Positions 9,473-20,976 are shown, counted from the first letter of the stretch. The stretch: 64,000 bases of DNA from Haloarchaeobius amylolyticus (GCF_026616195.1 NZ_JANHDH010000001.1:186001-250000), one strand, 5' to 3'. Program-made: numbers and translations. Notes: generated by a model from the sequence alone, not told the origin.

Positions 9473-10003
9473 ATGTCGGACAAACCCGCCTCCATGTACC
9501 GGGAGATCTCCAAGCCCGCGTACACGCGACGCGAGTACATCACGGGCATCCCCGGCTCGAAGATTGCACAGCACAAGATGGGCGACACCGGCTCGGAACC
9601 CGACGACTGGCCGGTCCAGATCAGTCTGGTGCTCGAGGAGGAGTGCCAGATTCGCCACGGGTCGCTGGAGGCCTCGCGGCTCTCGGCGAACCGCCACCTC
9701 ATCAAGGAGCTCGGTGAGGGCAACTACTACATGATCCTGCGGAAGTTCCCGCACCACGTCCTGCGCGAGAACAAGCAGGCGACCGGTGCTGGGGCAGACC
9801 GTGTCTCCGACGGGATGCGCCAGGCGTTCGGGAAGGTCGTCGGCACGGCCGCGCGCATCCAGCGCGGCGAGCGACTGTTCACGTGCTGGTGTACCGTCGA
9901 GCAGGCACCCGTCGTCAAGGACGCGTTCCGCCGCGCGTACAACAAGATCTCCCCGCCGTGTCGCGTCGTCGTCGAGCGTGGCGAGGAGAAACTCATCGCG
10001 TAG
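9473..10003 (+). CDS. rpl10e: 50S ribosomal protein uL16 (archaeal L10e)
   Basis: A 176-residue large-subunit ribosomal protein of the L10e/L16 family, located near the peptidyl transferase centre and the tRNA entry region. Diagnostic segments are [24 protein letters not shown] at the N-terminus, [21 protein letters not shown] in the middle, the loop [21 protein letters not shown] and the C-terminal [26 protein letters not shown]. The length matches archaeal orthologues. It is a single-gene unit here, with its own TATA-like box. Its last 11 bases overlap the convergent gene on the other strand. Confidence 0.97.
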
Positions 10004-10643
10004 GGTCGTCGTCTTCGACGAACGACCGCCGTTCCTGCTCGTCGAGCCGTTTCTGCCGTGCGGACCGCAGGTGGACAGCCGCGGTGACCGCGAGTGCGAC
10101 CGTGAACAGCGCGGCGTACGCGAGGCCGCCGAGACTCGCGAAGGGTGCGAGCCCGAGCCAGGCGAGCCCGACGAGGATGCCGAAGACGGCCGAGAGGCCG
10201 AGGTAGAACTCGCTCCAGTGCAGTTCGTCCTCGGGCACCACCTCGAGGTAGACGTCGAACGCGGCGAGGTCGGCCGCCGGCTCGACGGTCCCGCGTGACT
10301 TGTCGTACGCGACGATGTCGTGTTTCTGCATCATCGGGAGGTGGGTCTGGACGAGCGAGGTGTACACCCGCTTTCGCTGCTTGTAGTCCAGGTCCGCCTC
10401 GTCGATGCCGCATTCGCGCGCGGCGACGTAACTCGTCAGCTCCCGCACCGTCACCTGTTCGTGCTCCGCGAGTGCCTCGAGGACGAGGCGGCGACGCTGG
10501 TTGCTCAGCGTGTGGAACACGGTGTCCTGTGTGAGGACAGTGCCCCCCGTTCCATCGCCCGCCACCTGTGCCACCGTCACAGACGGCCCCCCGTCCCCCG
10601 GGTCCGCGACGACCATATCCGTCGATGGAGAAGTGTGTTTCAC
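9993..10643 (-). CDS. DUF7344-type winged-helix protein with membrane anchor
   Basis: A 216-residue haloarchaeal regulator-like protein. Residues about 40-125 form a winged-helix domain recognisable from [18 protein letters not shown], then [12 protein letters not shown], then [21 protein letters not shown], the pattern of DUF7344. The C-terminal third carries two hydrophobic helices ([21 protein letters not shown] and [19 protein letters not shown]) and then a charged tail, so it is predicted to be membrane-tethered. It is convergent with uL16 with an 11-base overlap. A second member of the family lies at 12293-12829. DNA targets and signals are unknown. An ATG near the AT-rich promoter (agtagttaacaaggg) supports the start. 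Confidence 0.82.
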
Positions 10644-12292: not shown

Positions 12293-12829
12293 TCAGCCGA
12301 AGAACTGCCGCCGGAGCGACCCCCGGAACTTCCACAGCTGGTAGGCCGTCGAGGCCGCGAACGTCGCGAGGAACCCGCTGGCGACGAGGCTCGGGTGGAG
12401 CTGTCCGAGGAGCGGGAGACCGTTGACCGACGCGACCACGGCACAGAGGCCGAGCACGCCGAGCCCGCGGTAGTACTCGCCCCAGGTGATGCCGTGGCCC
12501 GTCGTCACGTCCATGTACTGGGCGACCTCGCGAGCCCCCTCGTCGAGGGTGATGACCTTGCGGTTGCAGTCGTACTGGAGGATGCCGAGTTCGTCGAGCT
12601 TCGGCAGGTGCGTCTGGTGCAGCGAGATGTAGACCGTCTCGCGGATGTTCCGCGGTGCCGGTGTCTCGCCAGATTCGATGGAGGCGATGAGCTCTGAGAG
12701 GTCCCGCAGCGAGATCGACCCCGCCGAGCGGTTCAGGACCCGCAGTGTCTCCCGCCTGCGCGGGTTGCTGAGAATCTGGTGGATGTCGCACTCCTGTAGC
12801 CGATTGCGTCGTGTCGTAACTGGAAACAT
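12293..12829 (-). CDS. DUF7344-type winged-helix protein, membrane-anchored
   Basis: A 178-residue protein with a winged-helix core: CDIHQILSNPRRRETLRVL, SLRDLSELIASIES, then RNIRETVYISLHQTHLPKLDELGIL and a wing-like DCNRKVITLDEGA. Two hydrophobic segments follow (YRGLGVLGLCAVVASVNGLPL and PSLVASGFLATFAASTAY), then a basic tail. The HQTHLPKL signature is shared with the protein at 9993-10643. It is divergent from the SipW-type secretion island, 353 bases away, so it is the nearest candidate regulator of that island. This link rests on position only. Confidence 0.83.
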   Translation of the reverse strand: MFPVTTRRNRLQECDIHQILSNPRRRETLRVLNRSAGSISLRDLSELIASIESGETPAPRNIRETVYISLHQTHLPKLDELGILQYDCNRKVITLDEGAREVAQYMDVTTGHGITWGEYYRGLGVLGLCAVVASVNGLPLLGQLHPSLVASGFLATFAASTAYQLWKFRGSLRRQFFG

Positions 12830-13182: not shown

Positions 13183-14937
13183 ATGACACAAAAGAATTCG
13201 ATGAAACTGTCCCGGCGCCAGGTACTGGCCGGACTCGGAACGATCGGGGTCGCGTCCGCGGGCGCAGGCCTCGGCACCACTGCGTTCTACAGTGACCGTG
13301 AATCCGTCGAGGGATGGTTCGAGGCTGGTCGCGTCGACCTGCTTCTGGACTACCGCACGACCTACATGCCGTGGGAGCGCTACGACCTGCAGAACATCCC
13401 CATGGAACAGCGTCCGCCCATCGTCCCTGAGACGGACGACATGGTGTACCAGCTCGGCTCCGTCCCGGACTTCGGTGAGGTCCTGACCCACGACGAGTGG
13501 GGCCGCCGTGTCCTCGAGATCGACGCCTGTGCGACACCGAAGACCGAACTCGGCGCACAACTCATCGACGGCGAAGAGGGCATGTTCATCGACCTGATGG
13601 ACATCAAGCCGCTCGACCGTGGTGAGACCACCTTCTCGCTACACCTCTGTGGCAACCCGTCGTACCTGAAGATGCGTGCGACCGGTGACTCCGAGGGCGA
13701 CACCGACGGACCGCGCTTCGAGGAGGACTACCGCGAGGGCGTCAACAACAGCACCGAGCCCGAGATCGAGTTCGGTGACATCCTCGACGACCCGATGGGT
13801 GAGCTCCAGGACTTCATGCACGTGTGCTTCTGGTACGACCCGAACTGCAACAACGTGCGTGACCAGGAACCCCAGACCGTCTGTGTCCAGCTCGCACTGG
13901 ACAACAGCGACTCCATGGACGCGGAGTACGTTCCCGGCGGTGAGGCAGACCCGACCAAGATCGCGAAGACGAAGGACGGGGCACTCGCCCTGATCGACGC
14001 ACTCGAGGACGAGGTCGACCCGGACGACGATGACCTCACCCCGAAGCATATCGGTGTCACGCTGTTCAACGGTGACGGGGATGAGAACCCCATCATCAAC
14101 GCGAACAGCATCGACCCCACGACGGACGCAGCAGCGCTCCGGACCCTGATCAACGACGACTACAACGGTGACCAGGCCGACGCCAACGGGAGCGTCGCGA
14201 CCGGCATCACCGACGCCGCCGACCGCGTCGAGGACTGTGCGGACTACAACATCGTCGTCGCCACCTCGAACGGTGTCGAGAACGTCGAGGGTGCTCGTGA
14301 CGCAGCTGACGAAGCCCTTGGCCGCGACGGTGTCGACGAGGTCGTCATGGTGCTCATCCAGCCGGGTGACGCTACCGTGGACGAGTTCGCCGACTTCGAC
14401 GGACAGGTCTTCGTGGTCAACACGCCCGAGGAGACGGACGCCGCATGGCTCGACATCGTTCAGTTGGTGAAGGCCGCCCAGGTCGTCGCCGGTGAAGAGG
14501 TCTGCCTGTACGAGGGTCCCCTCTCGGGCTTCCTCGACATCATCGACGAAGACGGCGTCATCCTCCCGCCCGGAGCCGGTGAGGAGGCGGTCTGCACGCT
14601 CGGTGAGGCGACCAACACCGCGGGCAACTGCTGGCAGGAGGGCGTACACTGCTTCGCCCTCGAGTGGTACATCCCGTGCAAGGCAGAGGGCACCATGGCG
14701 GAGCCGGGCTACATCGACCTCGGAGCCTGTGGTTTCGACAACTACGCCGAGTTCCTCATCGAGGAATACGAACTGGGCAGTGCGGACGAACTCGACGGCC
14801 TCGTGAACATCACCCAGACCGACACGGTCCACTTCGGGCTGGAGTTCACCGCCGAACAGTGCCGCCACAACACCGTTCCGGAAGAGAACGGCGACAACGG
14901 CGACAACGGCGACGACGGCACCACCGCGCCGGCCTGA
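13183..14937 (+). CDS. SipW-type exported protein with inserted vWA domain (TasA/camelysin-like)
   Basis: A 584-residue exported protein. The N-terminus KLSRRQVLAGLGTIGVASAG followed by GTTAFYSDRE is the SipW-type signal with twin arginines, as in the paralogue at 15105. The flanking regions align with that paralogue (EGWFEAGRVD, WERYDLQ, RPPIVP, CGNPS, LYEGPLSGFLDII, and near the end NITQTDTVHFGLEFT). Between about residues 232 and 430 it carries an extra domain beginning LALDNSDSMDA, the DxSxS MIDAS motif (Asp240, Ser242, Ser244) of von Willebrand A folds. The usual third-motif Asp appears changed (ATSNG). The tail is an acidic GDNGDNGDDGTT repeat. It is probably a calcium- or magnesium-binding surface or matrix protein. 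Confidence 0.88.
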   Translation: MTQKNSMKLSRRQVLAGLGTIGVASAGAGLGTTAFYSDRESVEGWFEAGRVDLLLDYRTTYMPWERYDLQNIPMEQRPPIVPETDDMVYQLGSVPDFGEVLTHDEWGRRVLEIDACATPKTELGAQLIDGEEGMFIDLMDIKPLDRGETTFSLHLCGNPSYLKMRATGDSEGDTDGPRFEEDYREGVNNSTEPEIEFGDILDDPMGELQDFMHVCFWYDPNCNNVRDQEPQTVCVQLALDNSDSMDAEYVPGGEADPTKIAKTKDGALALIDALEDEVDPDDDDLTPKHIGVTLFNGDGDENPIINANSIDPTTDAAALRTLINDDYNGDQADANGSVATGITDAADRVEDCADYNIVVATSNGVENVEGARDAADEALGRDGVDEVVMVLIQPGDATVDEFADFDGQVFVVNTPEETDAAWLDIVQLVKAAQVVAGEEVCLYEGPLSGFLDIIDEDGVILPPGAGEEAVCTLGEATNTAGNCWQEGVHCFALEWYIPCKAEGTMAEPGYIDLGACGFDNYAEFLIEEYELGSADELDGLVNITQTDTVHFGLEFTAEQCRHNTVPEENGDNGDNGDDGTTAPA

Positions 14938-15051
14938 TCGTGAACACCGGGACCAGACGCCCCTGACCCGACCGCGGGTCCGGACCGGTCCGTCTCTTCC
15001 CGACACCTGACCCGACCCACGAGGGGAATCCGTGACCCGATGGCCGGTCAC

Positions 15052-15076
15052 GCGGCGGTTCGACACCGCCGGTGGG
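15052..15076 (+). promoter_or_regulatory. leader hairpin A, also found before the signal peptidase gene
   Basis: GGCGGT and ACCGCC pair around the loop UCGAC. 22 of 25 bases match 18230-18254, including one stem change (A to G) that keeps pairing as U-G. A second small hairpin, CCTC-GGAA-GAGG with a GNRA loop, follows before the start at 15105. It could be a shared RNA element or a site for regulation of the island. Confidence 0.5.
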
Positions 15077-15104
15077 TCCTCACCTCGGAAGAGGTATCTA
15101 CATC

Positions 15105-16367
15105 ATGCAATCACGACGGTCACAACTCACACGTCGCAAGGTCCTGGCCGGGCTCGGGACCATCGGGGTGGCGAGTGCAGGAGCGGGGCTCGGCACGACG
15201 GCCTTCTACAGCGACAGGGAAGCACTCGAGGGCTGGTTCGAGGCCGGCCGGGTCGACAACGTCCTCAGTTTCCGGTCGGTCTACGAGGCCTGGGAGCGCT
15301 ACGACCTTCAGGAGGTCCCGCTTGCGGACCGCCCGCCGATCGTCCCCGGCGGGAATGACATGCAGTACCTGCTGGCGGAGGCGCCGGCGTTCCGCGACGC
15401 GACCGACGAACCGCTCTCGTTCGCGTCGTGGCGCGACGACATCCGAACCATCGACGCCTGTTCGCTGACCGACCTGACCGACATCGGTATCAGCATTGAC
15501 AGCATCGAGGGGCTGACCGCGGTCGGGGTCGACCAGGTACCGAACGACCTCTTCCTGCCGGGACTGGTCGACGGCGCCGAGGGTATCTTCCTCGAACTCG
15601 ACGACGTGAAGCCGAAGGACCTCGGCGCGCTCCAGTTCGACATCCACGTCTGCGGGAACCCGTCGCTCGCGTTCCTCTCGCTCGCCGTCGACGAGCTCAC
15701 GCAGGAGGGCGTCGCCGAGAACGTCGAGAACGGCGTGTTCGAGTCGGAGGAGGAGGCAGGCGAGACGCTGGACGCGAACTTCGACACCGCCGGTTTCGAC
15801 ATCCTCTCGGGAACGGAGCTGGCGGGCGAACTGGGCCCGTACCTCTACGCTGTCCTCCTGAAGTCCGACGGCGTCTACCAGTCGTTCGACGTCGTCTTCG
15901 ACAAGGTGGTCGCCGCCGCGGACGACATGGACGACGACGTGCTCTACGCCGGCTCGCTGACCGGACTGGTCGAGACGCTGGTCGACGCCGGCACGCCCGG
16001 TGTCCAGCTCGAACCGTCGGGCAACGCGGTCGCGACAGAGGCTCTCTGTTTCGATCTCGACGTCCACAGTTACCAGCTGAGCTGGTTCCTCGCGTGTGCG
16101 GAGACCGACCCGCAGGGGCTCGGGTTCGAAGACCTGTTGCTGGTCAACCGCTTCACCGAGAACACCTTCGTCGTCGAGGGTGGAGTCACCGTCGACGACA
16201 ACGACGGCGACGCGAAGTTGACGCTCAACGACGAGCTCCGCCAGCGTGGGTTCTACCAGGCCGGTGACATCGAGACGGGCATCACCGTCGACGTGAACGT
16301 CACCCAGACGGACTCGGTCCGCGTCGGCTTCGAGTTCACGCTGGAGCAGTGCCGCGCCAACCTGTAG
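15105..16367 (+). CDS. SipW-type exported protein (TasA/camelysin-like)
   Basis: A 420-residue paralogue of the preceding gene without the vWA insertion. The N-terminus SQLTRRKVLAGLGTIGVASAG then GTTAFYSDREALEGW is nearly identical to that of its neighbour and fits a SipW-type signal with cleavage before the FYSDRE region. Conserved blocks include WERYDLQEVP, RPPIVPGG, IFLELDDVKPKDLG, FDIHVCGNPS and the C-terminal VNVTQTDSVRVGFEFTLEQC. The middle is acidic and low in complexity. These features match haloarchaeal members of the TasA/camelysin group, whose bacterial members form biofilm fibres. A fibre-forming role here is inference. ATG 15105 was chosen over an upstream in-frame ATG lying in the leader hairpin region. 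Confidence 0.87.
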   Translation: MQSRRSQLTRRKVLAGLGTIGVASAGAGLGTTAFYSDREALEGWFEAGRVDNVLSFRSVYEAWERYDLQEVPLADRPPIVPGGNDMQYLLAEAPAFRDATDEPLSFASWRDDIRTIDACSLTDLTDIGISIDSIEGLTAVGVDQVPNDLFLPGLVDGAEGIFLELDDVKPKDLGALQFDIHVCGNPSLAFLSLAVDELTQEGVAENVENGVFESEEEAGETLDANFDTAGFDILSGTELAGELGPYLYAVLLKSDGVYQSFDVVFDKVVAAADDMDDDVLYAGSLTGLVETLVDAGTPGVQLEPSGNAVATEALCFDLDVHSYQLSWFLACAETDPQGLGFEDLLLVNRFTENTFVVEGGVTVDDNDGDAKLTLNDELRQRGFYQAGDIETGITVDVNVTQTDSVRVGFEFTLEQCRANL

Positions 16368-16897
16368 GTGCGTGGTCGCCCCCGATTTTCGGCTACGTCT
16401 TTCGTCCATCGCTTCACACGAACCGAACTCGGAGTGGCTCCGTGAGCCAGCCCCGGTGACGCGCACGTGTGGTCGACCTGCCGCATCTCGGCGGTCGCCG
16501 GGAACGGACCGTAGCCGCGGTGGCGCCGGTGATCTCGTGGACGGTCGGAACAGTTCACCAGAGAACCGGTAGACTGCGCGGCGTCTAACCGGCTGTTCGA
16601 CCGGAACTGTCCCGGCCTATCGAACGGTTCTGTGAACGTTCACCCGGGTTACCGCGCAGTAGCTTCAGCATACCTAATGTATCAAGAAACATATGGTCGT
16701 CTGTCAGGGGGAGTCGCGTGCCCGCCCGGCCGGAGCCGAAACGGGCAGCGACAGCTGGCACGACGCCACATCAATGGGGAATCAGACATGACTCGAACAG
16801 GAGACGCACGAAGCCGACAGAGACGCGAGACGGTCGCGTCCGCGCGGGGGCGTGCGAATCGCCACGGAGGACGGAGGGAAACTCGCGAGGTGACATC
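16368..16897. promoter_or_regulatory. 530-bp gap with AT-rich promoter-like segment
   Basis: It separates the second and third exported-protein genes. The clearest AT-rich element is cagcatacctaatgtatcaagaaacatatgg at about 16664-16694. This suggests the third gene has its own promoter with a leader near 200 bases. A short Arg-rich frame (16788-16901) ends in a GTGA overlap with the next start, but has no other support as a gene. Confidence 0.4.
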
Positions 16898-18187
16898 GTG
16901 AGAGAGGGTGGACGCGTCAGCCGCCGCCGGCTGCTGTACACGCTGGGAAGCGTGGGCGCCATCACCGCGGCAGCCGGCGCGACGGGGACGACCGCCACCC
17001 TGCTCGACAGGGAGGCGTTCAGCGGCCTGTTCACCGCAGGGAGCCTCGACCTCGACATCTGCTGGCAGGACGCCGGCTTCCACGCGGCCGACGCCGGCGG
17101 CGAAGGCCAGGTCGTCGAACCCGGCATGTGCCCGGAGTTCGTCAACGGGACGGTCATCGACATCGACCTCCCGGACCTCGACGCGGAGAACCGGACCGGC
17201 TCGGGCAGCGCCCGGGTGCGCCTCCCCGACGACGGCACGAACAACGTCGCCTGGCTCTGGTTCCGGACCAGCTGCCCGGAGTCGCCGTGCACGGACGTCG
17301 GCGACCACGCGCTGGCGAACCTCTACCGCCAGCTCGAGGTGCGGGTGTTCTACGACGTGGACTGCGACGGCGAGTCCGAGGGGGAGGAGACCGTCACCAT
17401 CACCGAGGGGACGCTCTGTGAGGTCCTCTCGGAGCTCCACACCGGGTTCCGCCTCGACAGCGACCTGGAAACGCCAGACGCGGTCGAACCGTTCGAGCCC
17501 GGCCAGGAGGTCTGCATCGGCTTCGAGTGGGAACTCGTCGGCGACATCTGCATCGAGGGCGGCTCGCGGGCGGACTTCCGCATCGAGTTCTACGGCGAAC
17601 AGGCCCGGCACAACATGGCCGTCGAGTCGCCGTGGGACGACGAGTGCACCGTGGACTGCGAGGAGGTCTGCCAGGAGTGCGTCCAGGGCAAGGGCATCAG
17701 TTTCGTGTCGTTCTGCGTCGCGGACGGCGAACCGCTCCAGGACGGCGACGTCTGCTTCGCCGTCACCGGGACCAACAGCGACGGCGAACCGACCCGGATC
17801 GACTGGTACCTCACGCAGGCTGCCATCGAGCGTGGCGTCGACGGCGTCGACTACGTCGTCCTCAAGACGGGGAACGGTCCGATGCCGACGGACTTCGCGA
17901 TGGAGAATTTCTACTCCACCACCGGAACCGAGGGGTCGGCGACCATCCACCAGGGCGAGCCGGCCGAGACGGAGCAGGTCCCCTCCAGCCCGTGCAAGGA
18001 GGGCCACACCGGCATCAAGTACGACTACGAGGCCGGCTTCGACAGCCCGAACGACCCCTGTGTGCCGGACGACTGGGCGTTCGACGAGACGCGGGACACG
18101 TCGAAGGAACCCGAGTCGAACGAGTCGGAGCCGGAAGACTCCGCTCCGGACAACTCCGCCCCGGACGACCCGGGACCGAACAACTGA
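16898..18187 (+). CDS. SipW-type exported cysteine-rich protein
   Basis: About 429 residues from GTG 16898. The N-terminus VSRRRLLYTLGSVGAITAAAGATGTTATLLDREAFSG is a twin-arginine plus hydrophobic signal ending in the same LDRE-type boundary seen in the two upstream genes. The mature part has many cysteines, including the cluster DDECTVDCEEVCQECVQGKG near residue 250, and blocks CIGFEWELVG and FRIEFYGEQARHNM that recall the C-terminal EFT..QCRHN of the neighbour. The tail is rich in Glu, Ser, Asp and Pro (SEPEDSAPDNSAPDD). Metal binding or disulfide cross-linking is plausible. An ATG at 16718 would add 60 basic residues before the signal and is unlikely. Function is unknown beyond export. Confidence 0.8.
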   Translation: MREGGRVSRRRLLYTLGSVGAITAAAGATGTTATLLDREAFSGLFTAGSLDLDICWQDAGFHAADAGGEGQVVEPGMCPEFVNGTVIDIDLPDLDAENRTGSGSARVRLPDDGTNNVAWLWFRTSCPESPCTDVGDHALANLYRQLEVRVFYDVDCDGESEGEETVTITEGTLCEVLSELHTGFRLDSDLETPDAVEPFEPGQEVCIGFEWELVGDICIEGGSRADFRIEFYGEQARHNMAVESPWDDECTVDCEEVCQECVQGKGISFVSFCVADGEPLQDGDVCFAVTGTNSDGEPTRIDWYLTQAAIERGVDGVDYVVLKTGNGPMPTDFAMENFYSTTGTEGSATIHQGEPAETEQVPSSPCKEGHTGIKYDYEAGFDSPNDPCVPDDWAFDETRDTSKEPESNESEPEDSAPDNSAPDDPGPNN

Positions 18188-18229
18188 CCGACCGACTGAC
18201 CGACCAGACCCGCGTGGTACGAGGCCACC

Positions 18230-18254
18230 GCGGCGGTTCGATGCCGCCGGCGGG
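18230..18254 (+). promoter_or_regulatory. leader hairpin B, matching hairpin A at 15052-15076
   Basis: gcggcggttcga, two differing bases, then ccgccgg and ggg. It differs from hairpin A at three of 25 positions, with the stem preserved (GGCGGU/GCCGCC with a U-G pair). It lies 60 bases before the signal peptidase start. Confidence 0.5.
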
Positions 18255-18277
18255 CGTCCCTTCGGGGAGAGTATTCC

Positions 18278-18297
18278 GGGGCGTCACGCGACGCCCC
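18278..18297 (+). promoter_or_regulatory. perfect 8-bp hairpin before the signal peptidase gene
   Basis: GGGGCGTC and GACGCCCC pair around ACGC. The stem ends 16 bases before the start at 18314, and agggaaggga lies between, which could act as a ribosome-binding site. No T run follows, so intrinsic termination is less likely than control of translation or RNA processing. Confidence 0.5.
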
Positions 18298-18313
18298 AGG
18301 GAAGGGAGTTCAC

Positions 18314-19495
18314 ATGACACGAAAGGATTCAAACGACCGGCGATGGCTCATCAGGGGGGCACTGGGGACGGTGCTGAACGTCGTCGGGTTACTGCTGTTA
18401 CTGGCTATCGTCGTTCCCTTCGTCATCTACGCGGTCCCACAGGTCGCCGGTGGCGACCAGAGTTACGTCGTACTGACGGGGAGCATGGAACCGGCAATCA
18501 GCCCGGGTGACGTGGTCATCGTGACGCACGTCGACCCGACGACCATCGGGGTCGGCGACGTCATCATCTACGAGCGGGCGAACATGAACGTCCCGACGAC
18601 CCACCGGGTCGTGGAACGGACCACGACAGAGACAGGGGACGTCGCGTTCGTCACCAAGGGTGACGCGAACGAGGACCCGGACAGCGGACTGGTCACCACG
18701 AGCGCGGTCATCGGGAAGATCTCGTTGACTCTGCCGAAGGTGGGCTACGTCATCCAGTTCGTCAACTCGAAGACCGGCTTCCTGGCGCTGGTACTGGTCC
18801 CGTTCGGCCTGCTCATCCTGAGCGAGGTCTGGTCGCTGATCAGCACCGGCGTCCTCGGGCGTGGGCGCGACACCGAGTCGGCCACCGGGGACGACGAGGA
18901 CCAGTCCGCCGCCACCGAACAGGCGGGCGCGTCCGCGGCGACCGCCGCCGCGGCCGACACGGATGCAGCCGAGGAGGACGCCTTCACGTTCACGCGCGAG
19001 GAGCTCCGCATCGGCATCGGCGTGACCGGTCTGCTGGTGCTGTACTCGGGGGTCATCCTCTGGCTGGTGTACAGCCGGATGCTCGGCTTCCAGCAGTTCC
19101 TCACGGTCAGCATGATGGGCTTCGTCGCCTCCATCGGCTTGCTCGTGCTGCTCGGGAGCTTCTGGCGCCAGTGGCCCGAGCCAGCCGACCAGGGCCGCTC
19201 GGTCACCGACGGCGGCGTGACTGTCGCCGACGAGCCCCGAATCGTCCCGCGAGCCCCGGTCCGGGTCGCGGACGAGGAGCCGGCAGCCGAGGCCGAGCCC
19301 GCCATCGACACCGGCTCGACCGACGATGCGGATGCCGATGACGACGGGTCGGCCGCGGATGCAGCCGACAGCACAGACGAGACGACCGAGGCCGAGGACG
19401 AACACGGGGCCGACACGCACTCACCGCGACGTGGGACGTTCGGGCCCTTCCTCGGCGACGAATCCCCGTCCGCGGGCGGAGACAGCGATGACTGA
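18314..19495 (+). CDS. signal peptidase I, archaeal/ER (SipW-like) type
   Basis: A 393-residue membrane peptidase. An N-terminal helix (about residues 18-42) is followed by the extracellular catalytic domain. TGSMEPAISPGD has the nucleophile Ser57, THRVV has His97 (serine-histidine, ER-type, rather than serine-lysine), and TKGDANEDPDSG holds the conserved acidic residues. A second helix (about 153-178) follows, then an Ala/Asp/Glu linker, two more helices (about 234-285) and a long acidic tail. The C-terminal two-helix extension and the acidic tail are additions to the minimal enzyme. Set among genes with SipW-type signals, it is the likely dedicated processing enzyme. Its stop overlaps the next start by 8 bases, so the two are coupled. 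Confidence 0.92.
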   Translation: MTRKDSNDRRWLIRGALGTVLNVVGLLLLLAIVVPFVIYAVPQVAGGDQSYVVLTGSMEPAISPGDVVIVTHVDPTTIGVGDVIIYERANMNVPTTHRVVERTTTETGDVAFVTKGDANEDPDSGLVTTSAVIGKISLTLPKVGYVIQFVNSKTGFLALVLVPFGLLILSEVWSLISTGVLGRGRDTESATGDDEDQSAATEQAGASAATAAAADTDAAEEDAFTFTREELRIGIGVTGLLVLYSGVILWLVYSRMLGFQQFLTVSMMGFVASIGLLVLLGSFWRQWPEPADQGRSVTDGGVTVADEPRIVPRAPVRVADEEPAAEAEPAIDTGSTDDADADDDGSAADAADSTDETTEAEDEHGADTHSPRRGTFGPFLGDESPSAGGDSDD

Positions 19496-20744
19496 CGCGA
19501 GACGGCTGCTCGTCGCGCTGGTCGCCCTCGTGGTCGTCACGGCGGCGTTCGTCGGTGGCGGCGGCGCCGCCGCCTTCTTCAGCGACAGCGAGGCGGCCAA
19601 CGTCTCCGTCTTCGCTGCCGCGACCATCGACCAGGTCGAGCCGACGACGGTCGAGGTCAGTGGCTTCCACGCGGACACCCTGCAGGGACACGTCCTCGCA
19701 GCCGAGTACGGGAGCGACGTCATCTACGTCGAGGTACTCCGGTCCGCGGACGGGACCGTCACGATGACGTTCACCCGCGAGGCCGACGACCCGGCCCGCA
19801 TCTACATCGACGCGGCCCGCCTCGCCGACGTGCTCGGCGTGTCCACGACGGACCTCACCAGAGCGACCGTCTCGCTGGACAGCGCGCTCGTCGAGAGCGG
19901 CCTGTACGAGACGACGGTGACGGGCAAGGCGAAGCAGTCGGGCAGCAGTGGCGTGTACCTCACGTTCGTCATCGACTCGTTCTCCACCCGGACGGTGGAG
20001 ATCGCGGTGGCACCCGAGCCCGAACCGGCGGGTGACGACAACGGCACCGTCGAGGACGGCTCGACCGGCGGCGCACCCGTCGGCGGCCAGTCCGGTGGCG
20101 GTAGCTCGACCGGCGACGACGTCACTGGTGAGGACAACACCACTGACAACGTGACCGGCGGCGACAACGTCACTGACGGTATCGACAACGTCACCACCGG
20201 CGACAACACCACGGACAACGTCACCACCGGCGACGACAACGTCACTACTGGCGACGACAGCACCGACAACGTCACCGACGGCGGGGACGTGGCTGGCGGT
20301 GACAACTCGACCGACGACAACGTTACCACCGGCGACGACACCGCCGACGACAACGTGACTGGTGGGGACAACACGACCGTCGACGACTCGACGACCGGCA
20401 GCGACGACACCACCGACAACACGACCGGCGGTAGCGAGACGGACGACGGTGGCACGGACACCGGCGACGACAGCACCACCACCGGCTCGGACGACGGGAC
20501 GAACACCACCACGACGGATGGCGGTGATGGCACGGAGACGGCCGACGACTCGACCACCAGCGACTCGTCGACCACCGACGACAGCACGACCACGACCGAC
20601 GACTCGACGGGTGAGACCGAGACCGAGACCGGATCCGAGACGGACTCCTCGACTGGAACCGCGACCGAGACGACCGACACGTCCGCTGGAGCGACCCCCG
20701 ACTCCACGACCGACGACCAGACCACCGATGGGGCAGCCACCTGA
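19488..20744 (+). CDS. exported Thr/Asp/Asn-rich repeat protein with SipW-type signal
   Basis: A 418-residue protein translated from inside the end of the signal peptidase gene. The N-terminus LLVALVALVVVTAAFVGGGGAAAFFSDSE resembles SipW-type signals, with cleavage near AAAFFSDSE. A folded domain of about 150 residues follows. From about residue 180 to the end it is almost only D, N, T, G, S and V in imperfect repeats such as GDDNVTTGDDSTDNVTDGGD. This creates dozens of N-x-T sequons (NVT, NTT), consistent with heavy N-glycosylation, plus many threonines open to O-glycosylation. It may be a mucin-like stalk or matrix protein. No membrane anchor or PGF-CTERM motif is seen at the C-terminus. 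Confidence 0.85.
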   Translation: MTDARRLLVALVALVVVTAAFVGGGGAAAFFSDSEAANVSVFAAATIDQVEPTTVEVSGFHADTLQGHVLAAEYGSDVIYVEVLRSADGTVTMTFTREADDPARIYIDAARLADVLGVSTTDLTRATVSLDSALVESGLYETTVTGKAKQSGSSGVYLTFVIDSFSTRTVEIAVAPEPEPAGDDNGTVEDGSTGGAPVGGQSGGGSSTGDDVTGEDNTTDNVTGGDNVTDGIDNVTTGDNTTDNVTTGDDNVTTGDDSTDNVTDGGDVAGGDNSTDDNVTTGDDTADDNVTGGDNTTVDDSTTGSDDTTDNTTGGSETDDGGTDTGDDSTTTGSDDGTNTTTTDGGDGTETADDSTTSDSSTTDDSTTTTDDSTGETETETGSETDSSTGTATETTDTSAGATPDSTTDDQTTDGAAT

Positions 20745-20976
20745 CGCTCGTGGCGATTCCCGCCGTCGTGGGCCCTGGCGCCTGGTGATACTCTCCCTGC
20801 TGGCGGTCCCCGGGTCGCTCTGGAACAGCGCGGACTCCGGCGAACAGGGACGAAAGCGCGGGTTGCGCTACCGCGTCGGGCTGCGAGCGAACGCGCCGAA
20901 ACGGAACGCGTTGCTCGTGCTCGTCTACCTCGTCGTCGGGCTGTACCTCGCCGGGCTCGTCCTCACGCTCCTGTGA
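20728..20976 (+). CDS. small basic membrane protein ending the secretion island
   Basis: An 82-residue protein that starts 17 bases before the end of the upstream repeat protein gene, so it is likely coupled to it. It has a basic N-terminus with a hydrophobic stretch (WRLVILSLLAVPGSLWNS), a basic loop (RKRGLRYRVGLRANAPKRN) and a C-terminal helix (ALLVLVYLVVGLYLAGLVLTLL). It overlaps the convergent histidine kinase gene by 14 bases. Two membrane helices with a positive loop would suit a helper of the signal peptidase or an assembly factor, but there is no family match I recognise. Confidence 0.6.
   Translation: MGQPPDARGDSRRRGPWRLVILSLLAVPGSLWNSADSGEQGRKRGLRYRVGLRANAPKRNALLVLVYLVVGLYLAGLVLTLL

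Follow-up and report, generated by a model that had tools for sequence, protein, structure and literature searches.

The TasA fibre of the Bacillus subtilis biofilm matrix is encoded at tapA-sipW-tasA, where tapA overlaps sipW (PMC10151520) and a dedicated ER-type signal peptidase adjoins its substrates. The cleavage region of TasA reads GGGTWA-AFND, with Phe at the second mature position (PMC10269814), and the interface between TasA protomers is a proline box involving F29, P62 and Q232 (PMC10151520). The sipW-calY-capP locus of Bacillus cereus combines several camelysin-type subunits and one SipW with a helper, CapP, that has a small N-domain and a disordered C-domain (PMC13082335). Hence, a SipW-processed TasA fibre is a known kind of structure. 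In archaea, the AbpA bundling pili of Pyrobaculum calidifontis are described, in PMC9674648, as a donor-strand fibre structurally related to TasA, and the Tat-fimbriae (tafi) are, as relayed from Galeva et al. 2025 (iScience 28:111793) in PMC12687288, a Tat-exported surface filament of haloarchaea. TasA relatives in archaea have already been mentioned (PMC10151520, PMC9674648); our search of the open-access literature found no paper that connects haloarchaea with SipW or camelysin.

We analysed a window of 64,000 nucleotides (C1:186001-250000) from the 4.6-Mb genome of Haloarchaeobius amylolyticus. We consider it probable that the operon at one locus in this window encodes a haloarchaeal extracellular fibre of the TasA/camelysin type, exported by the Tat pathway and processed by a SipW-like peptidase, with its parts predicted from sequence and structure. 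Counted from the first nucleotide of the window, the features are:

12293-12829, minus strand, divergent: DUF7344 regulator, winged-helix-type (PF24035, E 2.4e-26, Pfam)
13183-14937, plus strand: S1, putative TasA-like subunit of 584 aa with a Tat/SipW-type signal and an inserted von Willebrand A (vWA) domain; RR at 11-12, boundary GTTA|FYSDRE
13867-14484, plus strand: vWA domain inside S1, residues 229-434; DxSxS motif kept as DNSDS
15105-16367, plus strand: S2, putative TasA-like subunit of 420 aa with no passenger domain; 45% identity to S1 over 229 aa
16898-18187, plus strand: S3, putative TasA-related exported protein of 429 aa, GTG start; adjoins the peptidase gene on its 5' side, a TapA-like position
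18314-19495, plus strand: SipW-like ER-type signal peptidase of 393 aa; Ser57 in LTGSMEP, His97 in TTHRVV
19488-20744, plus strand: S5, exported protein with the SipW-type boundary AAFFSDSE and a low-complexity tail; 8-nt overlap with the peptidase gene
20728-20976, plus strand: S6, protein of 82 aa with two hydrophobic segments, from direct reading; 17-nt overlap with S5

All six protein genes named in an earlier sequence-only reading of this DNA (S1, S2, S3, the peptidase, S5 and S6) are present as described there, with the start of S3 best placed at GTG 16898. Reading the sequence confirmed the Ser57/His97 dyad of the ER-type peptidase, and both proposed couplings, of S5 to the peptidase gene and of S6 to S5, also held. 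The island had been delimited as 13183-20976; its genes do lie within these bounds, but the system begins upstream, at the DUF7344 regulator. A second DUF7344-type gene (9993-10643, minus strand; E 5.8e-13 to the cluster regulator) lies a few kb further upstream, outside the conserved layout. The string GLGTIGVASAG, which had been assigned to three exported proteins, occurs in S1 and S2 but not in S3, which reads RRRLLYTLGSVGAITAAAGATGTTATLLDRE. S1 and S2 are paralogues (blastp E 4e-53), and S1 has further homologues among paralogues elsewhere in the genome. The tail of S5 comprises 238 residues of Thr, Asp, Gly and Asn with 15 N-glycosylation sequons (NxS/T), compared with 5.6 expected from shuffles, an excess that the repeats inflate. 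Homologues of S6 near other clusters are weak and occasional.

The resemblance to tapA-sipW-tasA includes a dedicated peptidase gene beside its substrates, the cleavage region (GGGTWA-AFND in TasA, GLGTTA-FYSD in the haloarchaeal proteins), a fold match to TasA and the proline-box residues. In many haloarchaeal clusters, the gene preceding the peptidase gene runs into it by a few bases, an arrangement that recalls tapA and sipW; in the window, the two genes are separated by 126 nt. The haloarchaeal clusters differ in having Tat rather than Sec signals, several subunits per cluster, vWA or choice-of-anchor passengers, cysteines, a DUF7344 regulator, and a coupled low-complexity protein 3' of the peptidase. 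S5 is comparable to CapP in layout, and the export route and regulators differ from those of sipW-calY-capP. AbpA belongs to hyperthermophiles, and none of the fold-search matches listed is AbpA.

We aligned 92 subunits and derived the boundary consensus G-x-GT[TS]A|[YFLW][FYL][SNT]DxE. The boundary Ala and Asp are present in 92/92 and Phe is at the second mature position in 81/92. NCBI's SipW-signal model, TIGR04088, matches 82 of the 92; S1 scores 19.1 bits against a cut-off of 19. Twin arginines are found in 92/92, a count that is not independent since these subunits were chosen partly for RR; before that selection, RR was present in 145 of 153 matches by a loose rule. The combination of twin arginines with a SipW-type boundary, previously regarded as an oddity of the window copy, is instead the norm of the subunit family.

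Many subunits carry a second domain. Pfam detects vWA in 30 of the 92, about a third, usually lying between the core's two halves. The Pfam VWA model alone did not detect the domain in S1; a profile built from 24 other members did (E 2.3e-14), and ~30 members carry vWA in the same region of the protein. Other subunits contain choice-of-anchor W or L domains, and NCBIfam NF038133 (choice-of-anchor L) matches one family member at 3e-66. In an alignment of 19 pre-peptidase proteins like S3 (A5), RR, the boundary Ala and the C-terminal Gln are invariant. The S3 of the window has neither the box proline nor the KPGD motif, and it probably serves as the subunit that ends or starts the fibre.

We modelled S2 with AlphaFold2 using the 92 aligned sequences (pLDDT 79, pTM 0.80) and compared the model with 350,542 PDB chains using Foldseek. 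Three TasA entries ranked 1-3 (E 0.025-0.066, probability 0.38-0.69), and the next match had a probability of 0.01; for the TasA fibre form, E was 0.025 and TM was 0.20/0.33. Since S2 is large, we also folded a short family member (L108:8093-8881, 262 aa; AlphaFold2 pLDDT 80). Its top match was the TasA fibre 8aur (E 5.7e-4, probability 1.00, TM 0.41/0.45), the sole match at <1e-3. A TasA-like fold is thus predicted for the short member, with a weak E value for S2 itself. Alignment of the family to TasA, with residue letters checked against the PDB chain, places F at F29 in 19 of 23 sequences (Leu in the rest), P at P62 in 23/23, and Q at Q232 in 22/23, suggesting that the proline-box residues are conserved in the family; the placement is by MAFFT, and shared motifs can pull an alignment. 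Within the 92 subunits, P170 and Q415 are invariant. At F200, only hydrophobicity is kept.

Profile comparisons gave a mixed picture. The camelysin model PF12389, proposed earlier as a check on the substrates, matches 68 of the 92 members at E<=0.01, in part via the signal region, and reaches E 0.019 for S1; it does not match S2 and, once signal peptides are removed, matches 9 of 51 members (best 5.9e-5). A search of PDB sequences with the family profile returned signal-peptide, vWA-type and spurious matches and no TasA; hence, the link to TasA rests on the fold, hhalign and residue conservation. In hhalign, VGNEIQGASLEWNKSFYAEQAR aligned to VQNKYQGNSIKLQFSFEATQWN of TasA, placing the family Q on TasA Q232 (E 2.4e-4, probability 44%, alignment A4); with alignment A3, the probability was 1%. 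Against the family profile, TasA reached 12.2 bits, barely more than the 11.6 bits of the top-scoring shuffle among 300. From sequence alone, the evidence for TasA homology is thin and would not carry the claim. Comparison by profile and structure could have shown the substrates to be unrelated to TasA and to each other; instead, S1, S2 and the paralogues are homologous, and TasA ranks first among the fold matches.

An alternative that we regard as unlikely is that these are separate secreted or surface enzymes or adhesins, sharing a signal and a beta-sandwich and forming no polymer, with the peptidase acting as a maturation enzyme of the secretome. The polymer is itself a prediction, the camelysin family bears the name metallo-endopeptidase in Pfam, and vWA and choice-of-anchor passengers would suit lone adhesins. 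However, the TasA-fibre interface residues are the invariant ones of the family, the clusters encode multiple subunits, and the fold of the short member is matched best by the fibre form, all of which favour a TasA-type fibre.

The peptidase passes TIGR02228 (104 bits, cut-off 51.85). It scores 92.8 bits with the Bacillus SipW model NF046067, under the 190-bit cut-off, and we therefore describe it as SipW-like, outside that equivalog. H. amylolyticus also has a tafi-like locus, whose peptidase scores 32.1 bits with NF046067; a fragment of another peptidase from this genome scores 30.5. Across 242 Halobacteria genomes, the subunit profile was found in 104, the window peptidase in 111 and both in 104, with no subunit-only genomes and 7 peptidase-only genomes (phi 0.94). 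These genomes are related by descent, so a Fisher p-value is not a true probability; a better guide is the control over the same 242 genomes, in which the tafi-like locus peptidase was compared with the subunits (phi 0.02). We examined three of the seven peptidase-only genomes (L121-L123), and in all three diverged subunits adjoin the peptidase gene. Moreover, 112 of the 150 subunit matches listed are within 15 kb of a window-type peptidase gene, where ~1% would be expected by chance.

We then assembled 41 peptidase-centred loci: 40 from other genomes, found by peptidase match and mostly one per genus, and a second H. amylolyticus cluster (L024). The peptidase is encoded with substrates of SipW-dependent type in 41/41 loci, and there are at least two subunits in 37/41. 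A divergent regulator homologue lies upstream of the first subunit gene in 28/41, and an automatic rule identified a coupled exported protein with a SipW-type boundary 3' of the peptidase in 29/42 loci, usually with a low-complexity tail and an overlap. For 27 divergent DUF7344 neighbours within 1 kb, the median E value to the window regulator is ~1e-45, and for other nearby DUF7344 genes, which are more distant from it, ~1e-20; by this comparison, the regulator type is predicted to be specific to these clusters. In the opposite test, we used the subunit to find 37 loci from named species (Halorubrum, Halobellus, Halorientalis, Natronococcus and others); the peptidase is present in 28 of 32 full-length loci and a close regulator in 34/37. 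A query with the window peptidase only, using peptides from variable stretches, found no relatives in genome contigs; the subunit alignment did find loci. The arrangement is far beyond chance, being repeated across Halobacteria and duplicated in the H. amylolyticus genome. A random peptidase neighbourhood would have spoken against the sequence-only reading, and the neighbourhood is not random. Its proposal of a dedicated enzyme beside its substrates is supported by the almost perfect co-inheritance and linkage, with cleavage and fibre assembly predicted to follow.

A further possibility, which we judge improbable and somewhat more so than solitary proteins, is that the cluster is a form of tafi with diverged TafA/TafE subunits. 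Export route and locus plan are indeed alike, S1 and S2 weakly match the TafA and TafE models, and the H. amylolyticus genome carries a tafi-like locus with its own DUF7344 regulator and signal peptidase. However, the TafA matches are confined to the signal peptide (model 2-27 of 201), with 14.9 bits for S1 and 15.2 for S2 out of 190; for TafA, TafC and TafE alike, the subunits give signal-peptide matches only, far under the cut-off. The tafi-like locus is separate, with other subunit families, independent occurrence across genomes and a peptidase of another lineage (33.6% identity over 125 aa), and the fold match goes to TasA. We rejected identity with tafi on the subunit models and the failure to co-occur (phi 0.02). 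The tafi-like locus itself (L010:2340-8085, C1 ~1456340-1462085) encodes TafE/TafA-like Tat proteins, a large exported protein, the peptidase and the divergent DUF7344 regulator; its TafE model score, 87 bits, is below the cut-off. It is hardly credible that the enzyme is just one more ordinary Sec11-type signal peptidase whose neighbours are coincidental: it does pass the general archaeal signal peptidase model, but the co-inheritance, the 41/41 linkage and the absence of any cluster part from the 10 kb examined around each of two further peptidase genes in this genome already contradict this idea.

The second complete cluster of H. amylolyticus (L024, C1:1006000-1022000) encodes a divergent DUF7344 gene, two TasA-like subunits (the first with vWA), a third, small exported protein, a peptidase with 37% identity to that of the window, and a coupled exported protein. 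Five more subunits are encoded elsewhere in the genome: three in L009, one in L025 and one in L010. The L009 subunits lie in tandem (L009:5674-11750), and no peptidase was seen within the 19 kb examined; similar orphan triplets with a DUF7344 gene, also clusters with no nearby peptidase, occur in Halorubrum loci L131, L140 and L151. The L025 subunit (L025:5356-7314) has a long tail rich in Thr, Gly and Pro as well as a hydrophobic segment at the C-terminus, which suggests a cell-anchored member; no peptidase was seen in the stretch examined around it. The L010 subunit (L010:10148-12175) adjoins the tafi-like locus and has an apparent inserted choice-of-anchor L domain containing the stretch FGSEEYNEYV. 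Entire clusters are found on plasmids in Halorientalis marina and Natronorubrum bangense (L135 and L150), so the system may move between strains. Some members of the phylum outside the window's order also have homologues (12 genomes). Relatives of the short subunit lie in tandem at G341:C1:1490185-1491576 and G380:C16:21905-23295, likewise within the phylum and outside that order (best E ~1e-50).

We propose the following model for the fibre operon. The divergent DUF7344 regulator would control the operon. Since the twin arginines are conserved, S1, S2 and S3 would be exported through the Tat pathway already folded. From its co-inheritance, linkage and the TasA-like site, we infer that the SipW-like peptidase cleaves the subunits at G-x-GT[TS]A|[FY][FY]xD. 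Cleavage would free an N-terminal strand, which should enter the neighbouring subunit in the manner of TasA fibres; the conserved F, P and Q would form the proline box. S1 would display its vWA domain from within the fibre fold, most likely acting in adhesion or as the fibre tip. S5 has a short exported N-domain and a tail that can be glycosylated and is probably disordered; by analogy with TapA or CapP, it would probably anchor or start the fibre at the cell surface, although this is the weakest step. More tentatively, and with somewhat less than even confidence, we suggest a TasA lineage using Tat export, whose subunits are already folded and self-complemented on leaving the cell; SipW-type cleavage outside would trigger polymerisation, and whole vWA or choice-of-anchor domains inside subunits would give a decorated matrix fibre.

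If this reading is correct, the Bacillus biofilm-fibre plan, with its dedicated peptidase, would reach 46 of the 74 genera of Halobacteria sampled, via another export route. Haloarchaeal biofilm research would gain a defined operon with testable residues, and the model predicts how folded, Tat-exported subunits could stay inactive until they are cleaved.
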